From NCBI RefSeq assembly GCF_017873815.1, contig NZ_JAGGKQ010000016.1, forward strand, positions 1 to 64,000: a DNA stretch of 64,000 nucleotides. The letters are read 5' to 3'. The stretch comes from Halorubrum alkaliphilum. Its GTDB lineage: Archaea > Halobacteriota > Halobacteria > Halobacteriales > Haloferacaceae. Shown here piece after piece: positions 29,374-49,591 of this stretch; position 1 is the first letter of the stretch; every line of letters starts with the position of its first letter. A program made the translations under genes and the position numbers. The notes beneath the pieces were generated by a model. It had not been told where the DNA came from and did not search any database. It saw nothing but the letters and a program-made list of their open reading frames with translations.

Positions 29374-30453
29374 TCACAGTAGATCGTCGATCTCGTCGTT
29401 CTGGAACGCCTCCGCCGCATCGGGCTCCTCTTCCGGCTCGTCGCGGATCGCCTGTCGAGCGCGTTCGAGGAACGCCTCGATCCGGTCCGAACGCTCAACG
29501 CCCGTGAGCAACACCACGGCCGCGAGCCGGTCGGAGTCGAGCGGGAAGTCGCCGCCGCGGACCTGCATCGACCCCGTCTCCTCTTGGAGCCACTTACGGG
29601 CCTTCTCAGCACCCTTTCGGGAGATCCGTTCGGGGTCGCCCGCGATGACGACGAGGCCGGCGTCGGCCGTCGTCGCGCTCGGTAGCGACAGCCCGGTCAT
29701 CACCGCGCTCCGGACCGTGCTGGTCACCGTGTTCACGTTATCGCCGGCGTCCTCGCCCGCGGGCGCGGAGCCGTACCCGACGGCGGCCATCCCGCCGGCC
29801 CGCAGCGTGTTTATTACCTCGCTGGTGTCGACGACCGACTCCCCGACCCCCTGCGTGGCCTCGCCGGCCGCCAACAGGAGTCCGACTCGCCGCGCCATCG
29901 ACTCGTTGATCGCGGCGTAGCCGCCCTCGACGCTCTCGCCTGACGACCGCCACGCGTCGTTGTCGAGCAGGATCGTCGCGTCCGCCTCCCGGACGAGCGT
30001 CTTCAGCGACCGCCCGGCGTTCACCTGATACATCGCCCCCTCGTCCCGACCGGGAAGGACGCCGAGCGCGTAGACGGGTACGTCGTACACCCGGGAGAGT
30101 TCGCGGACGAGCACCGGCGCGCCGCCGGAACCGGTGCCGCCGCCGAGACCGGCGACGACGACGATGGCCTCGACGTCAGCCGTGACCCGCGGGGCCACCG
30201 CGTCCAACACCTCGATGGAGTCCTCGTCCATCACCTCCGCACCGAGTTCGTTGTCGCCGCCGACGCCGTGGCCGTTCACTCTGGACTGTCCGACGAGTAC
30301 CGTGTCGAGGGGGAGGGGCTCGAGATCGGCGGTCGCGGTGTTGACGGCGATGGCATCGCGGATCGCGCCGAATCCCATCTCCGCGTCGAACTCCGAGAGT
30401 GCGGTCGTGAGCTTGCCTCCCGCTTGTCCGACGCCGACGAGGACGGCTTTCAT
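29374..30453 (-). CDS. cetZ: Tubulin-like protein CetZ
   Basis: A 359-aa GTPase of the archaeal CetZ branch of the FtsZ/tubulin superfamily. The tubulin signature is [12 protein letters not shown] (residues 102-113), preceded by AVNTATADL, with the T7-region equivalent near [13 protein letters not shown]. The C-terminus ([20 protein letters not shown]) is an acidic tail ending in a short conserved peptide. The ATG at 30453 is used (an upstream in-frame start is less likely). CetZ proteins affect cell shape and motility in haloarchaea. It is divergent from the pilus-like gene block, which begins 75 nt away. Confidence 0.93.
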
Positions 30454-30496
30454 GTCTCCATCATAACGATCGGTCAACAATATCCTTTTCCCATCG

Positions 30497-30519
30497 GTTT
30501 AAATACGAAACCGCGGCCA
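30497..30519 (+). promoter_or_regulatory. Shared pilus-block promoter, copy 1
   Basis: A TATA box TTTAAATA (from 30498) is followed by CGAAACCGCGGCCA. The first T lies exactly 30 nt before ATG 30528. The same 23 bases recur at 35463-35485 and a near-copy at 31696-31718, both also 30 nt before a start codon. Confidence 0.8.
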
Positions 30520-30527
30520 TCCGCGGT

Positions 30528-31115
30528 ATGACATCCGAGCCCGACCCGACGGCCGAGGGAGCCGTCGAGACCGGATTCGAGGAGCGACTCGACGCAGTGG
30601 AACGTGCACTCACCGGGAGCGACATGGAAGTCACCGATGTCGACGGCGGGGCGGCCGCCGCCGCGGAACGCGAGACGCTCGCGAAGCGCCTCGATTCGGT
30701 GGAGGAGCGCATCGAGGAGCTGGAGGCCGCAACACAGGCGGTCAGAGGGTACGCCGGTGCGATCCGTTCGGTCAACCGAGAAGTGGAACGGCGAGCGGAT
30801 CTCGCGCTGGCCCGCGCGACCGACGCGCGCGACGCGGCCCGACCCCGAGACCAGCCCGGGACGGGACGAGACGAGATCGGGACGGGACCCCGCGACGTCG
30901 ACGCCGCCGACGAGTTACGTGCGACCGACCGAGGGACGAACGCTCCCGAGGTTCCGACCGATGCGGCGATCGAGGCGGCGATCCCGGGAGACGACCACGC
31001 GACGGGGCGGAACCACGGATCCGACGCGAGGAACCGGGGCAGCTGCGAGGACCACGGACCCGACGAGGAGAACTCGGACGAGGGTCCCCTCGAACGGCTT
31101 CGTGACGCGCTGTGA
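30528..31115 (+). CDS. Coiled-coil acidic protein (DUF7310-like)
   Basis: A 195-aa protein with no membrane segment. Residues 17-90 form a heptad-like coiled coil (FEERLDAVERALTG, KRLDSVEERIEELEAATQ). The rest is Arg/Asp/Gly-rich low complexity. It is the first gene of the pilus-like block, and its TGA overlaps the next GTG start by four bases. Probably a cytoplasmic partner of the secretion ATPase. I recall the family as haloarchaeal DUF7310; function unknown. Confidence 0.75.
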   Translation: MTSEPDPTAEGAVETGFEERLDAVERALTGSDMEVTDVDGGAAAAAERETLAKRLDSVEERIEELEAATQAVRGYAGAIRSVNREVERRADLALARATDARDAARPRDQPGTGRDEIGTGPRDVDAADELRATDRGTNAPEVPTDAAIEAAIPGDDHATGRNHGSDARNRGSCEDHGPDEENSDEGPLERLRDAL

Positions 31116-31675
31116 TCCGTGTCGTTCTGACGGTCCTCCTCGCGGTCGCGCTCGTGGCCGCCTCGCTCCCCGCTCTCGACGCCACACGAACCGAAACGAC
31201 CGCCGAGCGGATCGGGGCGGAGGCCGAGCGGATCGAGCGGGCGGCGGCCGACCTCGTCGCGGGGTCGGTCGCCGTCGACGAGCCGGCACTCGCCGCGCGC
31301 GGATCGCTCGTCGTGCGCGCACCGAGCGGGTTCGCCGCCGCGCCGATAGACGACCTAACCCTCGTGAACGTCGACCCCGATCGAGACGGGGAGGCGAGCG
31401 TCGACCGGAGCAACGGGGCCGTGATCGAGCGGGATGACGGGACCGTGGTCGGCGGAGGCGATGAGGGAGGCGTCACGTCCGCCGACGTGGCATTGGCGTA
31501 TCGTTTTCGCGGAGAGCCGGTCCGAGTGATCCCGATACCGAATCCGACCGATACGGTCGGTCTTAGCGTCTTTGAGGGGCCGATAACGCTCCGGAGCACC
31601 GGTGAGAGCCGGATCGAGTTCCGGTTCGTCACGGACGAAGAGAAGACGTCGGTCCTGATCTCCCGAACCGGTTGA
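31112..31675 (+). CDS. Single-anchor exported protein (DUF7311-like)
   Basis: A 187-aa protein with an N-terminal hydrophobic segment (IRVVLTVLLAVALVAASLPA, residues 2-21), then a predicted extended helix (TRTETTAERIGAEAERIERA) and a strand-rich soluble domain. The layout is that of a pilin or pseudopilin, though no canonical prepilin peptidase site precedes the hydrophobic run. The GTG start is fixed by the 4-nt GTGA overlap with the preceding gene. It lies between the coiled-coil gene and the PilB ATPase gene. Confidence 0.75.
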   Translation: MIRVVLTVLLAVALVAASLPALDATRTETTAERIGAEAERIERAAADLVAGSVAVDEPALAARGSLVVRAPSGFAAAPIDDLTLVNVDPDRDGEASVDRSNGAVIERDDGTVVGGGDEGGVTSADVALAYRFRGEPVRVIPIPNPTDTVGLSVFEGPITLRSTGESRIEFRFVTDEEKTSVLISRTG

Positions 31676-31695
31676 GCAGCCGAGACGAACGATAT

Positions 31696-31718
31696 TTTAT
31701 ATGCGATACCGCGGCCAC
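31696..31718 (+). promoter_or_regulatory. Shared pilus-block promoter, copy 2
   Basis: TTTATATGCGATACCGCGGC continuing CAC matches the sites at 30498 and 35464 at nearly every base; the first T is again 30 nt before the start codon (ATG 31726). It lies at the end of the preceding gene and just after it, so the ATPase gene can be transcribed independently. Confidence 0.7.
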
Positions 31719-31725
31719 GCCGCTC

Positions 31726-33597
31726 ATGAGCATCGACGTCCCGTCGTTCCTCCGGTCGGGGAGCGACGACGGCGACTGTAGCTGTGACACGTCGTTCGAC
31801 CGGCCAGCGGGAACCGGGGTCGACGACCGTACCGTCCTCACGGTCGACGCAGACGGCTGTCCCGGACGCGGCGACCTCGCCGCGAGCTCGGACTGTCGAG
31901 CGACCGTCATCGACGCGCTCACCGATCGTGACGCGGACGTGATCAGAACGGAACACGCCGGTCGTGAACGCGCGTACGCGGGACGGGCTGCCGCGTGTCT
32001 GCTCGCCGCGGGTCGGTTCCGCGAGCGGATCGAGTTCCACGAGGCGCGGCTCGCGAAACGAGTGGCGCGGGACCCCGTCGGTGCCGTACGCGAGGCAACG
32101 GGGCGCGCTGGCCCGGCGGGACGGATCGTCGCCGAGACGGGGTTGGCGGAGGCCGTCGGCGACGCCGGCGAGACGGCCGACGTCCTCCGAGCACACGCCG
32201 GGCCGACCGTCGCCACGACTCGGATCGCGGCCGACCCGCCGCCGGGGGCGACTCTGACCGATCGGTGGGAACTCGACACCGGTGCGACGGTGCGACGCTA
32301 CGAGGGAACCGGTGAGCTCGACACGTACCACCTGACGCCTCCGACGACGGAGCTCAACGCCGATGCGCTCGCGACGCTCGAAGCAGCCACTGAACGACTG
32401 CTCGCCGACCCGACGGGCGGCGATAGAGCGCCGGGACGCGCCGTTCGAGCCGTGGCGAGCGAGGACGACCCGGTGCCGCTCCTCACCGACACGCTCCGTC
32501 GACACACCCACGGGTACGGGGCGTTCGAACACGTGTTCGCCGACGGCAGAGTAAGCGACGCGACGGTGTCGGCTCCCGTCGCCGAAAACCCCCTCCGTGT
32601 CGTCCTCGACGGGGAACGGTGTCACACTAACGTCCGGCTTCCGCCCGAAGGGGCCGCGACGCTCGCGTCGCGACTCCGACGGACCAGCGGGCGGGCGTTC
32701 TCGCGAGCGGCACCGGTGCTCGACGCGACGATCGAGACGGAGTCAGGTCGCGTCCGGGTCGCGGCGACGACCGATCCGGCGAGTGACGGGCTCTCCTTTA
32801 CGTTCCGCCGCGGCGACCCGGACGCATGGACCCTCGCACGACTCGTGAACGTGGACACGCTCTCCGCGCCGGCCGCTGGACTGTTGTCTGTCGCCGTCGA
32901 GCGTGGCGTGACGGGGCTCGTCGCCGGTGGACGCGGTGCCGGAAAGACGACCACGCTCGGATCGCTTTTGTGGGAGCTGTCGCCGGAGACGCGGTCGGTC
33001 CTGATAGAGGACACGCCCGAGCTCCCGGCAACGGCGCTCGCGAACGCCGACCGTGACGTCCAGCGACTACGCGTCGGAGACGGTGCGGAACCGTCACCGA
33101 GCGAAGCGGTTCGGACCGCGCTCCGACTCGGCGGCGGCGCGCTCGTCGTCGGCGAGGTGCGTGGTGAGGAGGCGAAGGCGCTGTACGAAGCGATGCGGGT
33201 TGGGGCCGCCGGCGAGACCGTGCTCGGAACGATCCACGGAGAGGATCCGGAGTCGGTCCGGGAGCGCGTCGTCACCGACCTCGGCGTCTCGCAGTCGTCG
33301 TTCAGCGCGACGGATCTCCTCGTCGTGTTGAACGACCACCGAGTCGACACGATAGTCGAAGTGATCGAACACGACGACGAGCCGTCGTTCGAGCCGCTGT
33401 TCGAACGGTCGTCGGATGGTCTCGAACCGACGGGTCGAACCCGCCGGGGAGAGAGTCATCTCGTCGACTACCTCTCTGTACCCGGCGAGTCGTACGCGGA
33501 CGTTCGATCGGCCATCGAACGGCGGGCGGATTCGATCCGCGAGGCGGTGGCGTATGGTCGAACGGCTCCGGGACGGTACACCGAGGGACGCCGATGA
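31726..33597 (+). CDS. PilB/GspE-type secretion ATPase
   Basis: A 623-aa hexameric ATPase of the type II/IV secretion family that powers pilus assembly or secretion at the membrane. Walker A is GGRGAGKTTT (residues 401-410, Lys 407), the Asp box is LIEDTPELPATAL and Walker B is GGALVVGEVRGEEAKALYEAM, followed by the His box GTIHGEDPESVRERVV. The N-terminal 60 residues hold four cysteines (CSC, GCPG, DCRA) that could form a zinc site. ATG 31726 is chosen for the promoter 30 nt upstream. The 3' end overlaps the PilC gene by four bases. Confidence 0.92.
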   Translation: MSIDVPSFLRSGSDDGDCSCDTSFDRPAGTGVDDRTVLTVDADGCPGRGDLAASSDCRATVIDALTDRDADVIRTEHAGRERAYAGRAAACLLAAGRFRERIEFHEARLAKRVARDPVGAVREATGRAGPAGRIVAETGLAEAVGDAGETADVLRAHAGPTVATTRIAADPPPGATLTDRWELDTGATVRRYEGTGELDTYHLTPPTTELNADALATLEAATERLLADPTGGDRAPGRAVRAVASEDDPVPLLTDTLRRHTHGYGAFEHVFADGRVSDATVSAPVAENPLRVVLDGERCHTNVRLPPEGAATLASRLRRTSGRAFSRAAPVLDATIETESGRVRVAATTDPASDGLSFTFRRGDPDAWTLARLVNVDTLSAPAAGLLSVAVERGVTGLVAGGRGAGKTTTLGSLLWELSPETRSVLIEDTPELPATALANADRDVQRLRVGDGAEPSPSEAVRTALRLGGGALVVGEVRGEEAKALYEAMRVGAAGETVLGTIHGEDPESVRERVVTDLGVSQSSFSATDLLVVLNDHRVDTIVEVIEHDDEPSFEPLFERSSDGLEPTGRTRRGESHLVDYLSVPGESYADVRSAIERRADSIREAVAYGRTAPGRYTEGRR

Positions 33598-35420
33598 GCG
33601 GACCCCGTCGCGAATCGTTGGGAGGAGACGGTAGGAGTGACACCGACGCCGGGTCCGAGGAGCTCCGTCGGTCCATCGCCTTCTTGGGCTGGGGCGTCAC
33701 CGCGCAACGCGTGATCGAAACCGGATATCGTGCCGGGATCGGTGCCGGACTCTGTGCTGTCATCATCGGGACACTCGTCGGCGGGATGGCGGTGGGTGCC
33801 GTTGCGGGTCTCGCAGTCGGTCTCGTTGTAACCCACGCAGTACACCGCGGACCGGTATGGATCGCATCGCTTCGGCGGACTCGTGCGCTCGGGGCCGCAC
33901 CGGGACTCGTCGGTCGCCTCGTGTTGCGGATGCGCCTCGACCCGTCGACCGAACGGGCGGTCCGTTTTGCGGCTCGAACGGGCCGTGGACCGCTGGCAGC
34001 GGGGTTGACCCGACACGAGCGCCGGTGTGTGAACGGCCCGACCAGCGGCCTCCGTGCGTTCGCACGCGAGTGGCGACCGTGGTTCCCCGCGATCGACCGG
34101 GCGGCAACGCTCGTCCGGACGGCCGCGTCCGCGCCGCCGGAGCGCCGTGGCCGCTGTCTGGATCGCGCCCTGAGCGCGACGCTCTCGGGGACGACCGAAC
34201 GACTGGCCGAGTTCGTCGGGGAGGTTCGCGGACCGGTCTCCGCGCTGTACGCGTTCGGCGTGCTTCTCCCGCTCGCCCTCATCGCGCTTCTGCCGGCGGC
34301 CGCGGCCTCGGGCGTCCCGATCCGACCGGCGATGGTCGCCGGCATATATCTCGTCGTGCTCCCGGCCGGACTCCTGGGAGCATCGGCGTGGTTGCTCGCC
34401 CGTCGACCGGTGGCGTTTCCACCGCCATCAATAGACGGGAGCCATCCCGACGTTCCCGATCGCCGTCCACATGCGGTCGCCGCAGGGCTCGGAGTGGGCG
34501 TCATCGGGGCCGGCCTTTCGGGAGCACTGATCGCCCGATGGACCGTTCTGGTCGCCGCGGTCGGGGTCGGCGTCGGGACGGCACTCGTCGTCGCGGTTCG
34601 ACCGCGCCGTGCGGTGCTCTCGGAGATCAGAGCGATCGAGTCGGGACTCCCGGACGCGATGACGGTCGTCGGGGGCGACGTCGCCGAAGGCGTCTCCGTC
34701 GAGCGAGCCGTCGCGAACGCCGGCGAACGACTCGACGACGCGACCGGGGACGTGTTCGAGCGGGCCGGTCGCCGGAGCGACACGCTTCGTGTCGGGGTCC
34801 GGGAGGCGTTCACCGGATCGGGCGGCCCGGCTGCGACCGTCCCCTCGCCCCGGGTCCAGGGCGCGGTCGCGTTGCTCGCCGTCGCCGCTCGCGAGGGGAG
34901 GCCGGCCGGCGACGTTCTACTCGAACTCGCCGACCAGCTCGAACGGCTGCGCGAGCTCGAACGCGACGCAAGACGACAGCTCGCGACCGTAACCGGGACT
35001 CTATCGAACACCGCGGCCGTGTTCGCCCCGATCGTCGGCGGGGCGACGGTCGCGCTCGCGACCGGGGTCGATACGGTCGGGGTCGGCGGTCTCGGGGCTT
35101 CGTCCGGCGGTACCGAAGGGATGGCCGATGCGCTCGCGGGCGGGGGTCCGGAGTCGGTTCCGACGGCGGAACCGACCGGAGCAGAGGGCGGCGGAGGCGA
35201 TGACGGAAGCGGGGGTGGCGGTGGAGCGTTGTCCGTTCCAGTGCTCGGCCGGATCGTCGGCGTGTACGTGCTCTTACTCTCGGGGACGCTGACTGCGCTG
35301 GCGACGGGGCTTGAACACGGGTTCGATGCGACGCTCGTCGCCTACCGGGTCGGTATCGCGTTACCGACGGCGACGGCGGCGTACGTGGTCGCGTTTGCCG
35401 GTGCAGGAGCGCTGTTGTGA
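33594..35420 (+). CDS. PilC/TadC-type pilus platform membrane protein
   Basis: A 608-aa polytopic protein. Membrane segments are visible near 44-82, 220-275, 302-340 and in the last 70 residues. The second half contains the T2SSF-like stretch EIRAIESGLPDAMTVVGGDVA and LLELADQLERLRELERDARR. It is the inner-membrane platform on which the ATPase acts. A Gly/Ser-rich linker (residues about 525-545) interrupts the C-terminal part. It overlaps the ATPase gene by 4 nt, as in most pilB-pilC pairs. Confidence 0.87.
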   Translation: MSGPRRESLGGDGRSDTDAGSEELRRSIAFLGWGVTAQRVIETGYRAGIGAGLCAVIIGTLVGGMAVGAVAGLAVGLVVTHAVHRGPVWIASLRRTRALGAAPGLVGRLVLRMRLDPSTERAVRFAARTGRGPLAAGLTRHERRCVNGPTSGLRAFAREWRPWFPAIDRAATLVRTAASAPPERRGRCLDRALSATLSGTTERLAEFVGEVRGPVSALYAFGVLLPLALIALLPAAAASGVPIRPAMVAGIYLVVLPAGLLGASAWLLARRPVAFPPPSIDGSHPDVPDRRPHAVAAGLGVGVIGAGLSGALIARWTVLVAAVGVGVGTALVVAVRPRRAVLSEIRAIESGLPDAMTVVGGDVAEGVSVERAVANAGERLDDATGDVFERAGRRSDTLRVGVREAFTGSGGPAATVPSPRVQGAVALLAVAAREGRPAGDVLLELADQLERLRELERDARRQLATVTGTLSNTAAVFAPIVGGATVALATGVDTVGVGGLGASSGGTEGMADALAGGGPESVPTAEPTGAEGGGGDDGSGGGGGALSVPVLGRIVGVYVLLLSGTLTALATGLEHGFDATLVAYRVGIALPTATAAYVVAFAGAGALL

Positions 35421-35462
35421 GCGTCGAACTCGTCACGATCACGACCCCGTCCACGTCCGATC

Positions 35463-35485
35463 GTTTAAATACGAAACCGCGGCCA
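35463..35485 (+). promoter_or_regulatory. Shared pilus-block promoter, copy 3
   Basis: GTTTAAATACGAAACCGCGG continuing CCA is identical over 23 bases to 30497-30519. The first T of the TATA box is 30 nt before ATG 35494. It starts the downstream unit of pilin-like genes. Confidence 0.8.
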
Positions 35486-35493
35486 CCCGACCC

Positions 35494-35976
35494 ATGTTCG
35501 AGACGAACCTCGACGCCACGTACGCGTGGCTCGGCCTTGCGGCCGTGAGCATCGTCACCGCCGGCGTAGTCGCCACGCTCCCCGCGTCGCCACCGCCGGA
35601 CGCGGACGGCGTCGCGCACACGATCGATTCGGTCGCCGGCAGTGACTACGTCGCGACCGCGGAACACGGGGTTTCGGCCGATCGGCTCCGGATCACTCCA
35701 CGAACGGTCGAGATCGATGGTGGCGGGGTCGTCGCTCGATCGACGATCGGCGAGAGCCCGATAACACCGGTCCCGCCCCGCGGGACAGGTGCCGACGACC
35801 GCCTCCGAAGGGTACTCGACGGTGTCTCGCCGGAGACCGTCTTCGACGACTCGGGCGAGTTCGCCGCGGCCGCGGAACATGAACGGACGCTCGAACACGA
35901 ATGGCGAGTCGCTCCCGACCGAATAACCGTGAAGCGGGTTCACTACGATGAGACACATGTCACGCTCGTCGGATGA
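35494..35976 (+). CDS. Pilin-like single-anchor protein (DUF7283-like)
   Basis: A 160-aa protein with a short N-terminus (MFETNLDATYA), one hydrophobic helix (about 11-30) and an exposed strand-rich domain. The layout is that of a minor pilin, but with a different signal. It is first in the downstream unit and is preceded by the shared promoter. Its 3' end overlaps the next gene by 20 nt. I recall it as haloarchaeal DUF7283; no biochemical function is known. Confidence 0.75.
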   Translation: MFETNLDATYAWLGLAAVSIVTAGVVATLPASPPPDADGVAHTIDSVAGSDYVATAEHGVSADRLRITPRTVEIDGGGVVARSTIGESPITPVPPRGTGADDRLRRVLDGVSPETVFDDSGEFAAAAEHERTLEHEWRVAPDRITVKRVHYDETHVTLVG

Positions 35977-36391
35977 GTGGTTCGTCGCTGCCGACCGTGC
36001 GGCCGTGGAGCCGATCGCAGCACTGGTTGCCGTTCTCGCCGTGGGGGCAGCGCTCGGGCTATATGTCGGCGTGCTGGATGACGTGCGTTCGGATGCGACG
36101 GAGGGGCCCGAAGAGGCGAGCGTCGTGGTCGACCGGATCGAACGCGACGTGACCCTCGGCGGCGTCGCGCGGCCGAGCCGCCTGAGCGACCTTGGGGAGA
36201 CGCGGACGCCGGCGACCGTCGAACTGGTGTCGGACGGAGAAACCTGGCGGGTCGGACTCGGGGCGGTCGGAGAAACAGGAGCCATTCGGCCAGATCGCCG
36301 GTCGAGTGCGGTCACCGAGCGGCGGGTAACCGTCCGCGTCGCCCCGGGGCGGAACACCCCCGGGACCCTTCGGGTGGTGTTCCACGGATGA
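35957..36391 (+). CDS. Pilin-like protein with class III-type signal (DUF7285-like)
   Basis: A 144-aa protein from MSRSSDEW; an earlier in-frame ATG at 35948 would add three residues. The sequence FVAADRAAVEPIAALVAVLA resembles archaeal prepilins (DRAVSPVIG type): a basic residue and Ala before a hydrophobic run containing Glu at about +3. Cleavage by the prepilin peptidase PibD is therefore plausible. The rest is a small strand-rich domain. It overlaps the next gene by four bases. Confidence 0.77.
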   Translation: MSRSSDEWFVAADRAAVEPIAALVAVLAVGAALGLYVGVLDDVRSDATEGPEEASVVVDRIERDVTLGGVARPSRLSDLGETRTPATVELVSDGETWRVGLGAVGETGAIRPDRRSSAVTERRVTVRVAPGRNTPGTLRVVFHG

Positions 36392-37005
36392 CGAGTACCG
36401 TTGTCGACGTGACGGTGTTACTGCTCTGCGTCTCGGCAAGCGTCATTACCCTCGGGATCGCGGGAGGGGGGCAAGGAGCGGGCGAGACGGGCTATACCGC
36501 GGACGACGCCGCGGACCGGCTGGCGACCGAGACGGCGACAATCACGTATCCGACGCCCGGAGCGGAGGATGACTCGCGAACCGTTCACGCGACGCTCGTG
36601 GAGTTCCTCTCGATGGCGATCGCTGCCGAGGAGTGGGACGACACGGGGGCGGCCGATCGGTTCCGGACGCGGGCGAGAACGGTCGTTACCGATTCGCTCG
36701 GGCCACGGACCCGAGTCGACGTTCGACATCGATTTGACCGCGTGGAGACGCTAGCCGAGAACGCGGATTCTCCGCCGGTGCCGACGCGGTCGAAAACGAG
36801 GACCGGGGCCGTTCGGGGAGGAACCGAAAACGACGAGCCGACCACCGTTTCCACCCGGGACGCTCGGGCGATCGGCGTCGGACCCGAACCGCCGAGGGAC
36901 GTCGAAGTCACGGCCGCCGTTGTGACGCATCCGGTCCCGGAGCGATTGGAGAGCGACGAGGGACGGGACGACCGACTTCGGGTCGTCGTCAGGGTGTGGT
37001 ACTGA
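36388..37005 (+). CDS. Pilin-like/TadE-like protein (DUF7284-like)
   Basis: A 205-aa protein starting MTSTVVDVTVLLLCVSASVI, a TadE/pilin-like N-terminal helix with an acidic residue (Asp 7) near the position of the pilin Glu+5. The exposed part has helical stretches (TVHATLVEFLSMAIAAEEW, DRFRTRARTVVTDSLG) and a strand near the end. The start overlaps the preceding gene by 4 nt and the stop overlaps the next ATG by one base. Likely a minor pilin. Confidence 0.76.
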   Translation: MTSTVVDVTVLLLCVSASVITLGIAGGGQGAGETGYTADDAADRLATETATITYPTPGAEDDSRTVHATLVEFLSMAIAAEEWDDTGAADRFRTRARTVVTDSLGPRTRVDVRHRFDRVETLAENADSPPVPTRSKTRTGAVRGGTENDEPTTVSTRDARAIGVGPEPPRDVEVTAAVVTHPVPERLESDEGRDDRLRVVVRVWY

Positions 37006-40000
37006 TGGGGAGCGCACGTGTGAGGGACCGAATCCCGGCCAGGGCGTTCGGCATGGACACGCGAGCACGGATCCCGTTCGCGCTGATTGGAGTGTTGCTG
37101 CTCGTGACGAGCTCCGCGTACGCGTCGGGGTTAGCGGGCCAAGGGCTCGTGAGCGAGGACCGAAGCGTCGAGCACGCCGTCGAACGAGTCGATGCGGACA
37201 CGACGGCGGCGCTGAAGAGTGCCGCCCGCGAGGCCGCACATGCTTCCGCGTCAGATCCGGTCACTCGCGCGCCGAGCGAGACGAACGGAAACGACGACGG
37301 CCGATCGGCGAACGCCGTCCGATCGGCGTCACCCTTCGCGGATGCCTTCCGGATCCGGCTGGCACTCGCGGCGGAGGAGTCGCTCTCGACCGTGGAAGCC
37401 GACGTAAACGACGTCTCCGCGACGGCGTCGTTCGGTGCGGCCGGCGACGACATCGATCCGAACGACCTCGGATCCGCACGGGAGTCCGTCAGCGTGGAGA
37501 GCGTCGCGGACGGAACGGCGACGCGAGTGACGTTCGAGGACGTGACCGTCACCGCGACTCGGGACGGGCGGACGGTCGCCGAAGAGATCCGAGACCGAAC
37601 CGTGGTCGTCGCCGTGCCGACGCTCGCGGCACACAAGCGAACGGAGCGGTTCGAGACGCGGTTGAATCGCGGTCCAGTGGAGGGCTCCGGACTTGGTCGT
37701 CAGCTGACCGCGAGCCTCTATCCGATGACGTGGGCGCGCGGATACGCACAGTACTGGGGCGCGCCCGTTCAGAACGTGCTGGCGAACCGCCACGTCGAAC
37801 TGTCGACGAACGCAGGGATCGTGCGGACACAACGGGACGTGTTCGGCACGAGCGACCCCGACGCGCGAGGGGGCGTCGCCGAAGCGACCGCCAGAACCGG
37901 GCTGACGGACCTGCTCGAACCCGGCCCGCTCGACGAGGACGCGTGGACGGATCTAGTGCTCGACACGCCGACGCCGACCCGCGAAGACGGGGACGGATTC
38001 GATGCGGCGGAGGCCCACACGGACGAGACGACCTCCGTCTCGGTCGATCACGCGGCCGACGTTGCTGCGCTGGAGGTCCACGACGATATCGAATCGATAG
38101 TCGAGGGCAGTTATCGAATCGAAGCGACCATGGAGACGTCCACTAGTCGCGTCTCAAGCGGAGGTACCGCGCGACCGCCGACACCCAGCAGTGGGGGGGT
38201 CGAAGGCGACTGGGCACGGGTCGGCACGAGTACCGACGAAACGGAGTGGGTCGTGAGCGACGATTCGGTTCCGAGCGGCGTCCCCCGCGGCACGGTCTCG
38301 TCCGGGGAGTCAGTGTCGTTCGGCACGACGACACGGGAGGTGGTCTCGGAGCGGACGGCGACGGCAAGATGGGAGCGGATCGTCGACGTCGAGGACGAAA
38401 ACGGTACTCGAACCGGAACACGGGTCGCCGAACGGACGACGACCACGGACACCGTGGCCGACCGGTATCGGGTCGTCGTCTCCGTGACCGGATCCTACGC
38501 ACCACGTGACGATGCGCCAGACCGCTCGATCGCGACGTTCGGAGCCGGCGGAGCCGGCGACGTCGATCTCACGGGAACGCCTCACGCGGCTCGGTCGGAA
38601 CTCGGTGCCGAGACGACTGGAGACATCGACTCCCTCGCGTACCAGGCCGTCTTCGACGGAGACGTCCACCGCTCGACCGTCGTGTTCGGTGATCCCGGTA
38701 CTGGGGTCGTCGATCGGAGCGCGAAGGAGATCGACGAACTACGGATCGAAGTGCGTGAGCTCGAAGCCGAACTCTCGATGGAGAAAGCTGCCGTCGGAGC
38801 GGCCGATCCGTACGACGACCTCGCTGAGACGGTCAGAGACCGGCGAAGCGAGTTTATCGACGCCCCAGTGACGTACGACGGGGCGGCCGATCGAGCGTGG
38901 ACGTCAACGCGTACCGCATACGTGGATGCCGTCATAGCGGAACTGGAGGCGGCGAACGACGACGAGAAGGCCGCGACTGACGGGTTCCTCGATCGGGTAG
39001 AAGGAGCCTTTGACGGCCCTTCACTCGCCGAGATCATCTCCAGCCGGGAGGCGGCACGCGATACGGGAGAGTACCGTGTCGGCGGGGAGGGCCCGGGTGG
39101 ATCGGTGACGTTCGTTCCGAACGCGTCACCGGGCTATCTTCCACGGACGGCGGTCGACGGGGCGGACGTCGACGCCGTTGACGGGACGACGACGCGGCCG
39201 CTCGCCACACGGAACCTGAACTACGTGACGGTTCCCTATGACGACGTTGCCGGCGGGATCGTCGACCGGATCCTCGGAACCGAGGACACCGTCCGGCTCG
39301 GCGTCGCCGGACGCGCGCTACTGGCCGCGGACGACGCGCTCGCCGGCCGAAACGACCCGGATCTGGAGGCCGATAGGGAGACGCTCGCCGACCGAGTGAC
39401 GGAGTCGATGGGCGTCGTGGACGACGAACTCGCCTCCGTCCTCGCGGATCGGAGCTCGATGAACCGCGGGGAAAGCGAGTCAGTCGTCGAGTCGGTGGCC
39501 GGTACGTACGGTTCGCCGGGAGAGAGAGCAGTCGCGATCGACGACGGCGAGTACGCACAACGGATCGCCGCGGCGGCCGAGCGTCGGAAGGGAGTGTCGG
39601 GACGGGAACGAGCGGCACTCAACGCGGATCTCCACGTTACGGCCCGGACAGCAACCGATCGCGACGCGGTCAGGATCCCTGCCCGATTCGTCGATGGACC
39701 GACCGAGAAGGTCCGTGAGGAGGTTCGCGGCGAGATGGAGGGCGCCGTAGAGGACGGTGCGCAACGCGTCGGCGAGGAGGCCGCGGAACGATGGGCCCCG
39801 AAGCCGGTTCGAAGAGTCGGGGCGGGACTTCCCGTCGCACCCGTCCCCGGGTACTGGGCCACAACGGTGAACGCGTGGCGCGTGGAGGTCCGCGGGGAGT
39901 ATCCTCGGTTCACGCTCCGCTCGGACGTCGGAACGCCGGACCGACCGTTCGAGTACGTCAGAGAAGAAGGAACGGTGACGGAGACCGTTGACGGCGAGAG

Positions 40001-40130
40001 AGTACGCTTGGGTGTAACCGAGCCGATCGCGTTCGAGACCGGAACGCTCGTCGCCGTTGCGGTCCCCGCGGGACCGCCCGGGGTCGGCGACGTCGACGGA
40101 ACACGTGACGAGACATCGCCGGGGTGGTAG
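37005..40130 (+). CDS. 1041-aa pilin-anchored surface protein (DUF7286-like)
   Basis: A very large protein whose N-terminus, TRARIPFALIGVLLLVTSSA (about residues 19-38), is a pilin-like hydrophobic anchor. The remaining 1000 residues are predicted outside the cell: long strand-rich regions, Ser/Thr/Asp-rich stretches (about 390-520) and a coiled-coil-like segment (EIDELRIEVRELEAELSMEK, about 578-597). A second hydrophobic patch occurs near the C-terminus. It begins at an ATGA overlap with the preceding gene. I recall the family as haloarchaeal DUF7286. It is the best candidate for the exported or tip component of the system. Confidence 0.75.
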   Translation: MGSARVRDRIPARAFGMDTRARIPFALIGVLLLVTSSAYASGLAGQGLVSEDRSVEHAVERVDADTTAALKSAAREAAHASASDPVTRAPSETNGNDDGRSANAVRSASPFADAFRIRLALAAEESLSTVEADVNDVSATASFGAAGDDIDPNDLGSARESVSVESVADGTATRVTFEDVTVTATRDGRTVAEEIRDRTVVVAVPTLAAHKRTERFETRLNRGPVEGSGLGRQLTASLYPMTWARGYAQYWGAPVQNVLANRHVELSTNAGIVRTQRDVFGTSDPDARGGVAEATARTGLTDLLEPGPLDEDAWTDLVLDTPTPTREDGDGFDAAEAHTDETTSVSVDHAADVAALEVHDDIESIVEGSYRIEATMETSTSRVSSGGTARPPTPSSGGVEGDWARVGTSTDETEWVVSDDSVPSGVPRGTVSSGESVSFGTTTREVVSERTATARWERIVDVEDENGTRTGTRVAERTTTTDTVADRYRVVVSVTGSYAPRDDAPDRSIATFGAGGAGDVDLTGTPHAARSELGAETTGDIDSLAYQAVFDGDVHRSTVVFGDPGTGVVDRSAKEIDELRIEVRELEAELSMEKAAVGAADPYDDLAETVRDRRSEFIDAPVTYDGAADRAWTSTRTAYVDAVIAELEAANDDEKAATDGFLDRVEGAFDGPSLAEIISSREAARDTGEYRVGGEGPGGSVTFVPNASPGYLPRTAVDGADVDAVDGTTTRPLATRNLNYVTVPYDDVAGGIVDRILGTEDTVRLGVAGRALLAADDALAGRNDPDLEADRETLADRVTESMGVVDDELASVLADRSSMNRGESESVVESVAGTYGSPGERAVAIDDGEYAQRIAAAAERRKGVSGRERAALNADLHVTARTATDRDAVRIPARFVDGPTEKVREEVRGEMEGAVEDGAQRVGEEAAERWAPKPVRRVGAGLPVAPVPGYWATTVNAWRVEVRGEYPRFTLRSDVGTPDRPFEYVREEGTVTETVDGERVRLGVTEPIAFETGTLVAVAVPAGPPGVGDVDGTRDETSPGW

Positions 40131-43583: not shown

Positions 43584-44798
43584 TTAGGCGAACGCCAGCG
43601 AGTCGTCGGCGTCGCCGGAATCGTCCTGCTGGAGCTTCTCGTGAGCTTCGAGGAAGTCGTCGAGGGTGACCTGCGTCCGGTCGTCGCGGATGGCGAACAT
43701 CCCGGCCTCGGTACAGATCGCCTTGATGTCCGCGCCGGAGGCGTCCTCTATCATGTCGGCCAGCCGGGCGAAGTCGATCCCGTCGGCGAGGTTCATGTTC
43801 CGGGTGTGGATCCGGAAGATGATCTCCCGGCCCGCAGTGTCCGGTTTCGGCACCTCGATGAGGCGGTCGAAGCGGCCGGGGCGGAGGATGGCAGGGTCGA
43901 GCATGTCGAAGCGGTTGGTGGCGGCGATGATCCGGACCTCGCCGCGCTCGTCAAAGCCGTCCATCTCCGAGAGCAGCTGCATCATCGTCCGCTGGACCTC
44001 GGCGTCGCCCGAGGTCTTCGAGTCCGTCCGCTTCGAGGCGATCGCGTCGATCTCGTCGATGAAGAGCACTGCGGGCTGGTTCTCGCGGGCGACCTCGAAG
44101 AGGTCACGGACGAGCTTCGCGCCCTCGCCGATGAACTTGTGGACGAGCTCGGAGCCGGCCATCTTGATGAACGTCGCGTCGGTTTCGTTGGCGACCGCCT
44201 TCGCCAGCATCGTCTTTCCCGTCCCCGGCGGCCCGTACAGGAGGACGCCGCTCGGGGGCGTGATCCCCACGTCGGTGAACATATCGGGATGTTCGAGGGG
44301 CATCTCGACGGTCTCGCGGACCTCCTGCATCTGCTCTTCGAGGCCGCCGATGTCGGCGTAGGTGACGTCCGGAGAGTGTTCGACCTGCATGACGCGAGCG
44401 CGAACGTCGGTCTCCTTCTCTAGCTTCTTGACGACCGATAGCGAGTTGTTGACTGCGACGCGGTCGTCGGGGTCGAGTTTTCCCCGCATCTCGTCGGTGA
44501 TCTCGGTCAGCGCCTCTTGGTTGTTGCCGTGCTGTTTGATCACGGCACCGTCCTCCGTGATCTCCTGTACCGTGGCCACGAACAGCGGCGACTGCTTGAG
44601 CTTCTTGTTTTCGTGGGTGAGCCGTTCGAGCTTCTGCTGGTACTTGTTGTTCTCGGCGTTCGCGTCGAGGAGTTTGTCGCGCATCTCCTCGTTCTGGGAC
44701 TCGAGATCCTCGAGGCGGTCCTGGAGAGTCTCGATCTTCTCCTGTCTCGACGCCGACCCCTCGTAGGGCATATCGACGTCGTCGACGGTATCACTCAT
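43584..44798 (-). CDS. pan: Proteasome-activating nucleotidase
   Basis: A 404-aa AAA+ ATPase that unfolds proteins for the 20S proteasome. An N-terminal coiled coil (about 15-70), an OB domain (71-130) and the AAA+ domain follow: Walker A GPPGTGKT (189-196), the pore loop KFIGEGAK (Phe 222), Walker B LFIDEIDA (245-252), and the sensor/Arg-finger region IIAATNRFDMLDPAILRPGRFDR. The C-terminus is LAFA, an HbYX-like tail with Phe in place of Tyr, which may weaken proteasome docking or gate opening. A CTCTTATCC box is about 28 nt upstream. Confidence 0.96.
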   Translation of the reverse strand: MSDTVDDVDMPYEGSASRQEKIETLQDRLEDLESQNEEMRDKLLDANAENNKYQQKLERLTHENKKLKQSPLFVATVQEITEDGAVIKQHGNNQEALTEITDEMRGKLDPDDRVAVNNSLSVVKKLEKETDVRARVMQVEHSPDVTYADIGGLEEQMQEVRETVEMPLEHPDMFTDVGITPPSGVLLYGPPGTGKTMLAKAVANETDATFIKMAGSELVHKFIGEGAKLVRDLFEVARENQPAVLFIDEIDAIASKRTDSKTSGDAEVQRTMMQLLSEMDGFDERGEVRIIAATNRFDMLDPAILRPGRFDRLIEVPKPDTAGREIIFRIHTRNMNLADGIDFARLADMIEDASGADIKAICTEAGMFAIRDDRTQVTLDDFLEAHEKLQQDDSGDADDSLAFA

Positions 44799-44937
44799 TG
44801 TGTGGTATAAGGCGTCTCGCGGATAAGAGGCTTCGGGTGGGGACACTCCGACGGCATCGACGTGTAATATAATGCCTAGTGGTAATGAAAACGGATAGTA
44901 AATATTATTTGTTGGCATGAAGTATGTCCGAACACGC
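44799..44937. promoter_or_regulatory. Divergent promoter region between pan and a winged-helix gene
   Basis: 139 nt, AT-rich toward the right (AGTAAATATTATTTG at 44897-44911). Two TATA-like boxes face pan (CTTATACC at 44803-44810 and CTCTTATCC near 44822-44830), and one box (44899-44906) faces the regulator gene. Palindromic or operator sequences are not clear. Confidence 0.5.
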
Positions 44938-45198
44938 ATGAGCACCACGGAAGCCGTCGCCACCGACGACGTCTCGGACCGCTGGGAAGGGGTCCGTGAC
45001 CTGCCGCCGAGCGCGAAGCTCGTCGCAAAGGTTCTCGATTACAACGACACGTTGACACAGAGCGAACTCGCCGAGGAGACGCTTCTCCCTCCACGAACCG
45101 TCCGGTACGCGCTCTCGCGGCTGGAGGAGGAGGACGCGGTCGACTCCCGGTTCTCCTTTACCGATGCTCGGAAACGACTCTACTCGTTGTCGGTCTGA
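44938..45198 (+). CDS. Winged-helix DNA-binding protein (MarR-like)
   Basis: An 86-aa protein with a single winged helix-turn-helix: SAKLVAKVLDYNDTLTQSEL, ETLLPPRTVRYALSRLEEED, SRFSFTDARKRLYSL. The recognition helix is PPRTVRYALSRLEEE. ATG 44938 is preferred over 44917 because the upstream AT-rich box gives a start site near 44930. It is divergent from pan, so it could regulate that gene or itself (inference). Confidence 0.8.
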   Translation: MSTTEAVATDDVSDRWEGVRDLPPSAKLVAKVLDYNDTLTQSELAEETLLPPRTVRYALSRLEEEDAVDSRFSFTDARKRLYSLSV

Positions 45199-45276
45199 AC
45201 GTCCGCACACGGGCGATCCGGTCATCCGTTCAAGGGTCACGCGAGAGTATAAACCCGATAGCGAACCAGCCACCGT

Positions 45277-45585
45277 GTGGTCTCGACCGACGACGTCAAA
45301 CGGGCGCTGTCCGCGCTAGCGACGCGAACCGACACCGCGACGAGACCGTACACCGCGGTGATCGACGAGGCCGACGCCGCCCGCGAGGACCTCCACCGGG
45401 CCGCCGGCTTCGTCGAGGCCGTCGGGCTCGACCGACTCGAGGAGGCGATCAGGGACGCCGAACGCGATGGAGACGCCGAGCTCGCCGATCGGGGACGCGC
45501 TGCGCTCGACTCGTACCGACGGTTCCGAGCGGTCGCTGAGGGGAGAGAACCGGCGGCGGATCGTGGGTCGGCCCGGAACCCCTAA
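45277..45585 (+). CDS. Small helical haloarchaeal protein
   Basis: A 102-aa, all-helical, charged protein (STDDVKRALSALATRTDTAT, DEADAAREDLHRAAGFVEAV, AIRDAERDGDAELADRGRAA). GTG 45277 is accepted as start because TATAAA (45248-45253) is centred 27 nt upstream, which implies a leaderless GTG-initiated transcript. It precedes mre11 by 26 nt on the same strand. No function known. Confidence 0.7.
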   Translation: MVSTDDVKRALSALATRTDTATRPYTAVIDEADAAREDLHRAAGFVEAVGLDRLEEAIRDAERDGDAELADRGRAALDSYRRFRAVAEGREPAADRGSARNP

Positions 45586-45611
45586 ATCCGACACCGGCCA
45601 ACCGTCGGGCA

Positions 45612-46850
45612 ATGACACGGGTGATCCATACCGGCGACACCCACATCGGGTACCAGCAGTACCACTCGCCGGACAGACGCCAAGACTTCCTCGACGCGTT
45701 CGACGCGGTCGTCGACGACGCGGTCGACGACGACGTCGACGCCGTCGTCCACGCGGGTGACCTCTTTCACGACCGACGACCGGAGCTTCCCGACCTGATG
45801 GGCACTATCTCCGTCCTTCGGCGGCTCGACGACGCCGGGATCCCGTTTCTTGCGGTGGTGGGGAACCACGAGTCGACCCGCGGCGGGCAGTGGCTCGATC
45901 TGTTCGAACGGCTCGGGCTCGCGACCAGACTCGGTCGGGAGCCGGTCGTCGTGGGCGACACCGCCTTCTACGGGCTCGACCACGTCCCCGTCTCCCGCCG
46001 TGACGAACTCGAGTACGCGTTCGAGCCGCACGACGCGGACTACGCGACGCTGGTCGCACACGGCCTCTTCGAGCCGTTCGCACACGCGGACTGGGACACG
46101 GAGACGGTTCTCGAGGAGAGCGACGTGGCGTTCGACGCGATGCTGCTCGGCGACAACCACAAGCCGGATCGCGCAACGGTCACCGACACGCCGGTCACCT
46201 ACTCGGGATCGACGGAGCGCGCGAGCGCGAGCGAACGCGAGGGACGCGGTTACAACCTCGTGCGGTTCGACGAGGACGCCGGCGGGGGCGACGATCGCGT
46301 CGAGATCCGGAGGCGCGCGATCGACACCCGCGAGTTCGTTTTCGTGAGCGTCGAACTCGGGGAGGGGGAAGGCGAGTCCCGCGTGCGCGAGCAGGTCCGC
46401 CAGCACGACCTCGGGGACGCCGTCGTCCTCGTCGAGGTGACCGGCGAGGGCGACCCGGTCACGCCGGCCGCGATCGAGGAGTTCGCCACCGACGAGGGGG
46501 CGTTGATCGCGCGTGTCACCGACCGTCGGACGGTCGAGACCGACGACGAGGTCGACGTGAGCTTCGCCGACCCGGAGGACGCGGTCCGCGAGCGGATCGA
46601 GGGGATGGGGCTCTCGGCGGCCGCGCTCGACATCGACGAGACGGTCCGGTCGGAGAGCGTCGCCGACACGAACGTCCGGGAGACGGTGAAATCCGCGGTC
46701 GAGGACCGGCTCGACGACCTCGACGCGTTCGTGGCCGCGGACGACGGCGAGTCGAACGAGGGCGGGCCAGACGACGGCGACGAGGGTGAGACGGACGCCG
46801 ACTCGGAGCCGACCACAGACGGACAGGTCTCCATGGAGGACTACCTATGA
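45612..46850 (+). CDS. mre11: DNA double-strand break repair nuclease Mre11
   Basis: A 412-aa calcineurin-like phosphoesterase. Metal motifs are HTGDTHIG (Asp 9, His 11), HAGDLFHD (Asp 50), VVGNHE (Asn 85, His 86), and downstream HGLFEPF and GDNHKPD. It pairs with Rad50 to process DNA ends. The last residues, GQVSMEDYL, look like a PCNA-interacting (PIP) box. The preceding segment (about 375-405) is Asp/Glu-rich low complexity. It overlaps rad50 by 4 nt. Confidence 0.93.
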   Translation: MTRVIHTGDTHIGYQQYHSPDRRQDFLDAFDAVVDDAVDDDVDAVVHAGDLFHDRRPELPDLMGTISVLRRLDDAGIPFLAVVGNHESTRGGQWLDLFERLGLATRLGREPVVVGDTAFYGLDHVPVSRRDELEYAFEPHDADYATLVAHGLFEPFAHADWDTETVLEESDVAFDAMLLGDNHKPDRATVTDTPVTYSGSTERASASEREGRGYNLVRFDEDAGGGDDRVEIRRRAIDTREFVFVSVELGEGEGESRVREQVRQHDLGDAVVLVEVTGEGDPVTPAAIEEFATDEGALIARVTDRRTVETDDEVDVSFADPEDAVRERIEGMGLSAAALDIDETVRSESVADTNVRETVKSAVEDRLDDLDAFVAADDGESNEGGPDDGDEGETDADSEPTTDGQVSMEDYL

Positions 46851-49591
46851 GATTCGACAGGGTCCGGCTCACCAATTTCAAACCCTACGGCGATGCCGAC
46901 GTCCGATTGTCCGAGGGGGTGACAGTCATCCACGGCCTCAACGGCAGCGGGAAGTCCTCGCTGTTGGAGGCATGCTTCTTCGCGCTGTACGGCTCGAAGG
47001 CGCTCGACGGGACCCTCGACGACGTGATCACGAACGGAGAAGACGAGACCGAGGTCGACCTCTGGTTCACGCATGACGGAGTCTCGTATCACGTCTCGCG
47101 TCGGCTTCGCGAGTACGACGACCGCGTCGATCACGACTGTACGCTCGAAGCGACCGCGGGAGGCGACCTGACGCGCGACGGCGCGACCGCGGTTCGGCGG
47201 TTCGTCACCGATCTGCTCCGGATGGACGCCGACGCGTTCGTCAACTGCGCGTACGTCCGTCAGGGCGAGGTCAACGCCCTCATCAACGCCAGTCCGAGCC
47301 AGCGACAGGACGTCATCGACGACCTCCTCCAGCTGGGGACCCTCGAGGAGTACCGCGAGCGCGCCGGCGACGCGCGCCTCGGCGTCGAGGACGTGTTGAA
47401 CGCGAAGCGGGCCGTCCTTAGAGAGAAGGAGAGACGGATCGAGGAGAAGGAGGAGCGGGACCTCCACGACCGGCTCAACGGACTCGAAAGCGACCTCGCG
47501 GAGCTCGACGAGCAAGTCGACCACTACGAGGACCAGCGGGACAGCGCGCGCAAGACCCGGTCGGAGGCGGTCGAGACGCTCTCGACGTACGAGGAGAAAC
47601 GGGACGAACTGGAAGCGGTCGAGTCGGAGATCGAGGGGATCGAGACGTCGATCCGCGAGACGGAGCAGGAGCGCGAGACACACCGGACGGCGATCGGCGA
47701 GGCGCGCGAACGCATCGACGAGATCGAGTCCGGGATCGACGAGCAGTTGGACGCCGCGGGGGTCGAAACGGCGACCGCGGCGGCCATCACCGACCGCCGC
47801 GCGGAGCTCGACGACCGGGAGGCCGAGATCCGTGCGGAGCTCGACGACGTGCGGGTGAACGCCGAGGCGTTCCGGAACCAGTCGGAAACGCTCTCGGAGA
47901 AGGCGGATGACCTGGCCGAGCGAGCCGCGGACGCCGAACGCGAGGCCGAACGTCGCGAAGAGGAGGCCGAGGCCGCAGCGGCGGAAGTCGAGGAACACGA
48001 GTCCTCGATCGAGGAGCTCCGCGAGGAGGCGGCCGGGCTCCGCTCCCGGTTCGAGAACGGTAAGGGGGACGCCGAGACGGACGGAGTGGACGACGACGAA
48101 ACCGTCGAGGAGACCGTTAACGTGGGGCCCGACGAGGCGGCCGGACGACGGGAGACCCTCCGTGAGCGACGCGGCGAGGCTCGCGAGCGGATCGCCGAAC
48201 TCTCCGCGGAGTTGAAGAACGCCCGTGAACGGGTCGTGGACGCGGAAGCACTACTGGAAGCCGGGAAGTGCCCGGAGTGCGGACAGCCAGTCGAGGACTC
48301 CCCGCACGCGACCGGGATCGACGAGGATCGTGAGCGCGTCGCGACGCTGGAGACGGAGCTCTCCGCCGCCCGCGATCGGGCCGAACGCCTCGATGACCGG
48401 ATCGAGACGCTCGACGGGCTCGTCGAGGCGGCCGACCGGCTCGACGAGATCGACGACACCATCGGAACCGTAGCGGAGCGAGTCGAGGAGAAGCGTACGG
48501 AGGCAAGCGAGAAGCGGGAGGCGGCGAGCGAGAAGCGCGACGAGGCCGGGAAGCTCCGGGAGCAATCCGAGGAGACGCGCGAGGTGGCCGTAGAGAAACG
48601 TGAGGAGGCCGAGGCAAGCGAGAAGCGGGTACGGGAGCTGGAAGCCGAGATCGACGCGATCGAGGACGCTCGGATGTCCGTGAGCACGGTCGAGGAACGC
48701 TTGAACACGATATCCGATCTCAACGAGCGGATCGAGCGTCGTCGCGAGAAGCGGGCGAACCTCGAGGAGGTGAACGACGAGCGGCGCGACCGGCTTGCGG
48801 ACAAACGAGATCGACGCGACGACCTCCGAGAGGACGTCGATGAGGAGGCGATCGAGACGGCAAAGGAGCGCAGGGAGGACGCCGAGGACTACATCGAACA
48901 AGTCACCGAGGAGTTGGACCGGCTCGACGAGCGCCGGACCGAGCTCCAGAACGCGATCGGCGGCGTGAGAGGTGAAATAGCGGCGCTTGAGGAGTTCCGC
49001 GAGGAACGTGAGTCGCTGGCCCGGACCGTCGAGTCGCTGGAGTCGCTCCACGACGAGACCGCCGAGCTGGAGGCGACGTACGGGGACCTCCGTGCGGAGC
49101 TGCGGCAGCGAAACGTCCGGGAGCTGGAACGGACGCTCAACGAGACGTTCGAGCTGGTGTACGGCAACGACGCCTACTCACACATCGAGTTAGACGGCCA
49201 GTACGCGCTTACCGTGTATCAAAAGGACGGAGAACCGCTCGATCCCGAACAGCTCTCCGGGGGCGAGCGGGCGCTGTTCAATCTCTCGTTGCGATGTGCG
49301 ATCTATCGCTTGCTCGCCGAGGGGATCGAGGGAGCCGCGCCGACGCCGCCACTCATCCTCGACGAACCGACCGTCTTCCTCGACTCCGGGCACGTCTCCC
49401 GGCTCGTCGACCTCGTCGAGGAGATGCGTGGGTTCGGCGTGCGACAGATACTCATCGTCAGCCACGACGACGAGCTGGTCGGGGCGGCCGACGAGCTCCT
49501 AACCGTCGAGAAGAACCCCCGGACGAACCGCTCCACGGTCACGCGCGAGGATGTCGCCGGGCTCGACGTCGCGTCGCTCGCGGACGACTAA
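46847..49591 (+). CDS. rad50: DNA double-strand break repair ATPase Rad50
   Basis: A 914-aa SMC-like ABC ATPase. Walker A is GLNGSGKSS (residues 30-38). Long coiled coils (about 180-440 and 500-745) flank the zinc hook KCPECGQPV (Cys 475 and 478). The ABC signature is LSGGERALFNLSLRCA (about 802-817), and Walker B is LILDEPTVFLDSGHV (about 840). The ATP-binding head and hook are both complete. It starts four bases inside the mre11 gene, a strong translational coupling. Confidence 0.96.
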   Translation: MRFDRVRLTNFKPYGDADVRLSEGVTVIHGLNGSGKSSLLEACFFALYGSKALDGTLDDVITNGEDETEVDLWFTHDGVSYHVSRRLREYDDRVDHDCTLEATAGGDLTRDGATAVRRFVTDLLRMDADAFVNCAYVRQGEVNALINASPSQRQDVIDDLLQLGTLEEYRERAGDARLGVEDVLNAKRAVLREKERRIEEKEERDLHDRLNGLESDLAELDEQVDHYEDQRDSARKTRSEAVETLSTYEEKRDELEAVESEIEGIETSIRETEQERETHRTAIGEARERIDEIESGIDEQLDAAGVETATAAAITDRRAELDDREAEIRAELDDVRVNAEAFRNQSETLSEKADDLAERAADAEREAERREEEAEAAAAEVEEHESSIEELREEAAGLRSRFENGKGDAETDGVDDDETVEETVNVGPDEAAGRRETLRERRGEARERIAELSAELKNARERVVDAEALLEAGKCPECGQPVEDSPHATGIDEDRERVATLETELSAARDRAERLDDRIETLDGLVEAADRLDEIDDTIGTVAERVEEKRTEASEKREAASEKRDEAGKLREQSEETREVAVEKREEAEASEKRVRELEAEIDAIEDARMSVSTVEERLNTISDLNERIERRREKRANLEEVNDERRDRLADKRDRRDDLREDVDEEAIETAKERREDAEDYIEQVTEELDRLDERRTELQNAIGGVRGEIAALEEFREERESLARTVESLESLHDETAELEATYGDLRAELRQRNVRELERTLNETFELVYGNDAYSHIELDGQYALTVYQKDGEPLDPEQLSGGERALFNLSLRCAIYRLLAEGIEGAAPTPPLILDEPTVFLDSGHVSRLVDLVEEMRGFGVRQILIVSHDDELVGAADELLTVEKNPRTNRSTVTREDVAGLDVASLADD

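Follow-up and report, generated by a model that had tools for sequence, protein, structure and literature searches.

A directional promoter box downstream of TATA marks a probable small regulon that includes the pilB2/C2 pilus locus of Halorubrum

Three promoters of a pilus locus are nearly identical in the 64,000-nucleotide stretch of Halorubrum alkaliphilum DNA that we analysed (hereafter the window). This raises the question of whether their common sequence is a signal dedicated to pilus genes, a general promoter form, or the mark of something wider.

Three promoters with a GC-rich box in fixed register with TATA

The initial annotation had placed the motif exactly 30 nt before three start codons, and we reproduced all three positions. 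Indeed, TTTAnATnCGAnACCGCGGCCA occurs as three exact forward-strand copies in the window (30498-30519, 31696-31717 and 35464-35485), and the start codons at 30528, 31726 and 35494 are each preceded by TTTA at exactly 30 nt. As had been noticed, copies 1 and 3 have 23 bases in common (gTTTAAATACGAAACCGCGGCCA). With up to 3 mismatches allowed, the window yielded the same three matches only, against 0.02 expected from 100 dinucleotide shuffles, in agreement with the claim that no other gene of the window is preceded by the box. In the 3.1-Mb genome, these three were the only exact matches to TTTAnATnCGAnACCGCGGCCA, with 4 further at 2 mismatches, and a reversed-pattern control of that search returned 0 matches.

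Each promoter, on the forward strand, consists of a TATA box followed directly by the shared box. In promoter 1, the TATA box TTTAAATA (30498..30505) is centred ~26.5 nt before the ATG at 30528, and the shared box CGAAACCGCGGCCA (30506..30519; profile 27.2 bits) lies at -22 to -9 relative to this ATG. Promoter 2 has TTTATATG as TATA box (31696..31703) and CGATACCGCGGCCA as shared box (31704..31717; 24.4 bits), and promoter 3 repeats TTTAAATA (35464..35471) and CGAAACCGCGGCCA (35472..35485; 31.0 bits). The box consensus is CGAWRCCGCGGCCA, a non-palindromic and directional sequence, and CCGCGGCCA is the box stretch as distinct from TATA. The 14-mer CGAnACCGCGGCCA has just four exact occurrences in the genome, every one of them promoter-placed, and a DNA-uptake-type repeat was rejected on this ground.

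Coding overlaps suggest that the locus is organised as three transcription units with one box each. Unit 1 starts with a DUF7310 coiled-coil protein (30528..31115, +; Pfam PF23991, E=2.6e-27), whose end overlaps a DUF7311 gene (31112..31675, +; PF23993, E=9.9e-30). Unit 2 encodes a PilB2-type secretion ATPase (T2SSE; 31726..33597, +; PF00437, E=2.9e-17; locus type as in PMC9856176) and, overlapping pilB, a PilC/TadC-like membrane protein (33594..35420, +), assigned by synteny with a T2SSF match below the cut-off (E=0.0013). Unit 3 starts with a putative pilin-like DUF7283 protein (35494..35976, +; PF23954, E=1e-49) and continues with DUF7285 (35948..36391, +; PF23956), DUF7284 (36388..37005, +; PF23955) and, last, the 1025-aa DUF7286 protein (37053..40130, +; PF23957, E=0), which we used as the marker of the pilus locus in relatives. 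The divergent neighbour is a tubulin-like protein (29374..30453, -; CetZ_C, E=2.8e-64), presumably of the CetZ2 type, its own evidence being the CetZ_C domain and the subfamily following from the locus description in PMC9856176. The window search found no copy of the box at the CetZ start. The CetZ/DUF7310 intergenic region (30454-30497) holds a second Halorubrum-conserved block, TAATACcTTTTCCCCCGA, probably the divergent CetZ promoter. Further along, window 43584-49591 holds the gene of an AAA proteasome-type ATPase. It is followed by genes for a metallophosphoesterase and a Rad50/SMC-like ATPase, a Mre11-Rad50-like pair downstream of the pilus locus and 5-9 kb away from it; no box was found there.

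An ATPase, a TadC-like protein (the PilC assignment being weak) and pilin-like genes beside CetZ are the content of the cetZ2-adjacent pilB2/C2 type IV locus, which was defined by synteny (PMC9856176), and we found this synteny across Halorubrum and other families. It probably represents a type IV system of the subclade 4F kind, to which the coiled-coil protein belongs (PMC4858521). The cetZ2-linked pilB2/C2 regulon of these papers (PMC9856176, PMC4858521) is thus the same locus, with CetZ2, pilB2/C2, predicted pilins and the coiled-coil protein. As far as their accessible text goes, "regulon" there means gene content by synteny, without a shared cis-element or off-locus members.

Part of the promoter is general. 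As background we took a 464-kb genome sample, window included, with 412 called genes. TTTAWR boxes of unrelated genes in this sample peak 29-30 nt before starts; therefore, the exact 30-nt spacing is ordinary leaderless geometry, and the view that the TATA portion is general was borne out. The three promoters, with TATA ~26-30 nt before the start codon, have the layout of leaderless promoters, and in Haloferax volcanii 72% of coding transcripts are leaderless (PMC4983044). They resemble the general haloarchaeal promoter (BRE CGAAA, TATA TTWT, -10 WW; PMC4983044) in a BRE-like CGA, in TATA and in the 30-nt leaderless spacing, but this consensus has no GC-rich CGAWRCCGCGGCCA, which is also absent from the other promoters that we sampled. 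As a matter of fact, a sequence common to unrelated promoters between TATA and start was found at the right distance in 3/412 sampled genes, which are the three reported; their profile scores were 35.7-46.1, and the gene next in rank reached 3.0. This rarity rules out a general promoter form.

The box is conserved and recurs at unrelated genes

Orthologous loci were drawn from 40 genomes. Among Halorubrum orthologous promoters, the strict box stood at 27/31 for unit 1, 26/32 for unit 2 and 28/32 for unit 3, with the register kept. The boxes were located in part by their highest profile score, a procedure that inflates similarity, and the ilvE promoters and the 412 genes served as controls against this. 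In other families the box loosened to GA-N3-SGSGRCCA and retained its place in most promoters; the core variants CGGGACCA and CGAGGCCA are non-palindromic and keep the same direction. The CCGCGG core is palindromic in Halorubrum, and the other families lose this symmetry and keep the right half, GRCCA. Positions 5' of the DUF7283 TATA/BRE carried almost zero information in relatives. In relatives, copies 1 and 3 show no particular resemblance to each other. The 23-base identity is therefore incidental, and the conserved part is the box.

The control ilvE promoters had no box. Those of Halorubrum (L282-L311) have a conserved TATA-start spacer of their own, TTTTAAGCCCGCCGACCGCAAC, unrelated to the box. 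Thus, conservation within the genus is by itself no proof, and what counts is recurrence at unrelated genes.

Such recurrence was found. A profile (R1) built from 58 promoters gave at least 11 hits at E<0.05 in the genome, among the 150 of 3034 candidates that were scored, and in all 11 listed hits the TATA position was followed at 30-32 nt by a start codon or by the 5' end of a non-coding RNA. Off-locus, the listed hits precede a DUF7382 gene, a HerA-like gene, a TctA-family gene, a PLD-domain gene, a NucS_N/Zn-ribbon gene and three small-RNA-like units. The DUF7382 protein has a pilin-like hydrophobic N-terminus, the HerA-like gene (DUF87) is its divergent neighbour, and the PLD protein is secreted. 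Relatives add a Cas4/RecB-like gene, with a Cas4 Pfam match below the cut-off. The DNA-handling roles suggested by these names come from Pfam matches, some of them weak.

These promoters are conserved to different degrees. TctA orthologues had the box at 30/30 loci and DUF7382 orthologues at 26/30, most of the other DUF7382 loci being truncated or offset; both promoters retain it in other haloarchaeal families. The strict form was present at 14/18 Cas4-like promoters, with weaker forms in Haloferax, Halobellus and Halobacterium. Looser versions prevailed at PLD (strict in 13/29) and HerA-like promoters (15/27). The latter two kept the box although their TATA was canonical in only 5/29 and 0/27 cases, respectively. 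Partial or altered forms were seen as well. The promoter of L177 (G000 C25:37812-37833, -) has the left half-box GAAGCCGC without GGCCA; by eye, we take the N-terminus of this gene to be RadA-like. DUF7857 genes (L014, L022, L009, L243) carry a shortened variant, CGATACCGCGGCAC, with 29 nt from TATA to ATG.

The gene set is linked to the pilus and also wider than it. Outside the genus, DUF7382 tracks DUF7286, being found in 10/11 genomes with DUF7286 and 0/13 without (Fisher p=5.6e-6, uncorrected for phylogeny). In two genomes, G036 and G040, no DUF7286 was detected and this pilus is probably lacking, yet the box was kept at their TctA and NucS_N-like genes, which indicates a regulon wider than the pilus. 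In two box-bearing genes, L173 and L027, a NucS N-terminal-like domain is fused to zinc ribbons; they come from Halorubrum and from an other-family genome without detected DUF7286.

The box thus stands before several unrelated units and is conserved at their orthologues, as expected of the shared element of a regulon. The initial annotation had held that occurrence before many unrelated genes would point to a general promoter form; with about 11-13 box-bearing promoters per genome and 3/412 sampled genes, this is not what we found. Scanning the genome left the exact motif confined to the three promoters, and the profile revealed the box off-locus too, in the genome and in relatives. Hence the proposal of a shared site dedicated to the pilus block stands in part: a fixed-register, non-TATA element under strong constraint does occur at the secretion-ATPase and pilin-like units, but it is not reserved for them, being conserved before TctA, PLD, HerA-like, NucS_N-like and Cas4-like genes and small RNAs. 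The box is probably the mark of a small regulon, and is neither a pilus-dedicated signal nor a general promoter form.

Could the box have spread by recent duplication of one promoter segment inside the pilus block? The 23 bases common to copies 1 and 3 suggest so, but the three promoters of relatives differ outside the box, and the box precedes unrelated genes on other contigs. We give this scenario next to no credence, and the conserved off-locus copies refute it.

The box also precedes a family of small RNAs

The same box as at the pilus genes is borne by a small-RNA family with five copies in the genome (L168 1405-1492, -; L169 1412-1492, -; L174 1529-1605, +; L180 1535-1625, +; L140 1530-1651, +) and with relatives at L010, L020, L221, L223, L224 and L246. 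The five copies start with an GUGACCUGA-like sequence at the predicted +1 and end with an CGCCUGUUCGCCA-like one; at least some copies are convergent with the 3' ends of protein genes. Minimum free energy folding of the small RNAs was no better than that of shuffles. As this method cannot model a pseudoknot, we turned to covariation. Across 11 sequences, two crossing helices had 92.4% of cells paired and 8 pairs changed on both sides, and 0/500 shuffles scored as high. The family is apparently pseudoknotted, judging by these alignments. Comparison with Rfam gave no match, no tRNA was detected among the small RNAs, and a search of 846 kb with a model built from these RNAs returned no convincing extra copy.

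The non-coding members bear on the possibility that the box is a translation or mRNA signal in a 5' leader, which we consider very improbable. The box is indeed near the start codon. But with TATA centred ~26.5 nt before the ATG there would be no leader, the register is held to TATA and not to the ATG (30-32 nt), and non-coding RNAs are preceded by the box as well. More generally, TATA-to-box spacing is constant and box-to-start distance varies by 1-2 nt, which indicates that the box belongs to transcription, not translation.

How the box may act and what it may serve

A fixed-register shared element under strong constraint makes a common regulatory factor likely. Our preferred reading, to which we assign a probability of about 60%, is that the directional box is read by one factor together with TBP, TFB and polymerase, and that this co-expresses a small regulon. 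Assuming that transcription starts at the start codon, the box would lie at about -22 to -9. CGAWRCCGCGGCCA would be recognised in a sequence-specific manner, most likely by an activator or by a specialised initiation factor of the TFB type, and this factor would act within the TBP/TFB/RNA-polymerase complex. The co-expressed set would comprise the three pilB2/C2 units, the DUF7382 gene, the HerA-like, PLD, NucS_N-like, Cas4-like and TctA genes, and the small RNAs. We found no description of the box in the openly accessible literature searched.

A repressor is a serious rival to the activator/TFB reading. By binding in the interval from TATA to the start, it would keep polymerase from loading until a signal releases the regulon. 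The location of the box would be equally consistent with such an operator; moreover, the footprint of polymerase overlaps with these positions (-22 to -9), and the pilus promoters have strong TATA boxes. However, a repressor needs neither fixed TATA spacing nor a single orientation. Constant spacing, fixed orientation and lost symmetry, the core being non-palindromic in other families, argue for a directional element rather than a free-standing dimer operator. Likewise, the box is retained at the poor TATA boxes of the HerA-like and PLD promoters, which would favour positive action, by an activator or specialised TFB. On balance we regard a common repressor as possible but on the unlikely side.

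A third view takes the box as a constitutive core-promoter variant, for instance an extended downstream TFB contact, undedicated and merely suited to a certain expression level. It would agree with the rigid register to TATA and with the mixed functions of the genes, small-RNA genes included. Yet a form found in 3/412 genes is very rare for such a role, the same orthologous genes keep the box across genera and families, and the gene set tilts to pilus and DNA handling. We hold it to be unlikely.

As for the purpose of a regulon read by one such factor, the Sulfolobus ups/ced system resembles it as the nearest functional parallel, by its mix of pilus and DNA-handling genes. The UV-inducible hexanucleotide A(N)TTTC of this pilus and DNA-exchange regulon stands upstream of BRE, at positions -39 to -44, in promoters of the ups pilus, herA and tfb3 (PMC5817253), and the Ced DNA-import system includes HerA-clade ATPases (PMC11868833). 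Both motifs are short, non-palindromic, fixed-place elements at a pilus ATPase, pilin units and a herA gene; both serve separate transcription units, and the regulator of the Sulfolobus motif was unknown when it was described (PMC5817253). However, that motif is AT-rich and upstream of BRE and the Halorubrum box GC-rich and downstream of TATA, so that the box does not match A(N)TTTC at its position. In addition, the Halorubrum set includes a small-RNA family and belongs to another archaeal phylum and another pilus locus. Given the differing sequence, position and organisms, the box is not a member of the Sulfolobus ups/ced regulon. Closer in phylogeny, the CsmR motif TATCA(N4)TGATA defines an archaellum and cell-shape regulon in Haloferax volcanii (PMC13286277). 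Here too a haloarchaeal regulon has a motif that is linked to the core promoters of its type IV filament genes, but the CsmR motif is semi-palindromic, upstream of BRE/TATA and without sequence resemblance to the box, and it concerns the archaellum instead of pilB2/C2 (PMC13286277).

By analogy, the box regulon could be a haloarchaeal DNA-exchange or uptake regulon, parallel to Sulfolobus ups/ced and built from other parts, a suggestion we make with considerable doubt. The pilB2/C2 pilus and DUF7382 might serve contact or capture; the secreted PLD protein would be part of the set, and the TctA-family membrane protein would be a candidate channel. Inside the cell, the set would comprise the HerA-like ATPase and the Cas4/RecB-like and NucS_N-like proteins. 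The pseudoknotted small-RNA family would be included, all under one initiation factor recognising the element downstream of TATA.

Little is known of how haloarchaea regulate their type IV pili, archaella aside, and the published descriptions, as far as their accessible text goes, do not establish what pilB2/C2 does. A fixed-register element downstream of TATA would be an uncommon location for archaeal promoter control. The box supplies a list of genes to test, a bait sequence with which the factor could be sought, and a possible connection to DNA exchange that is open to experiment.
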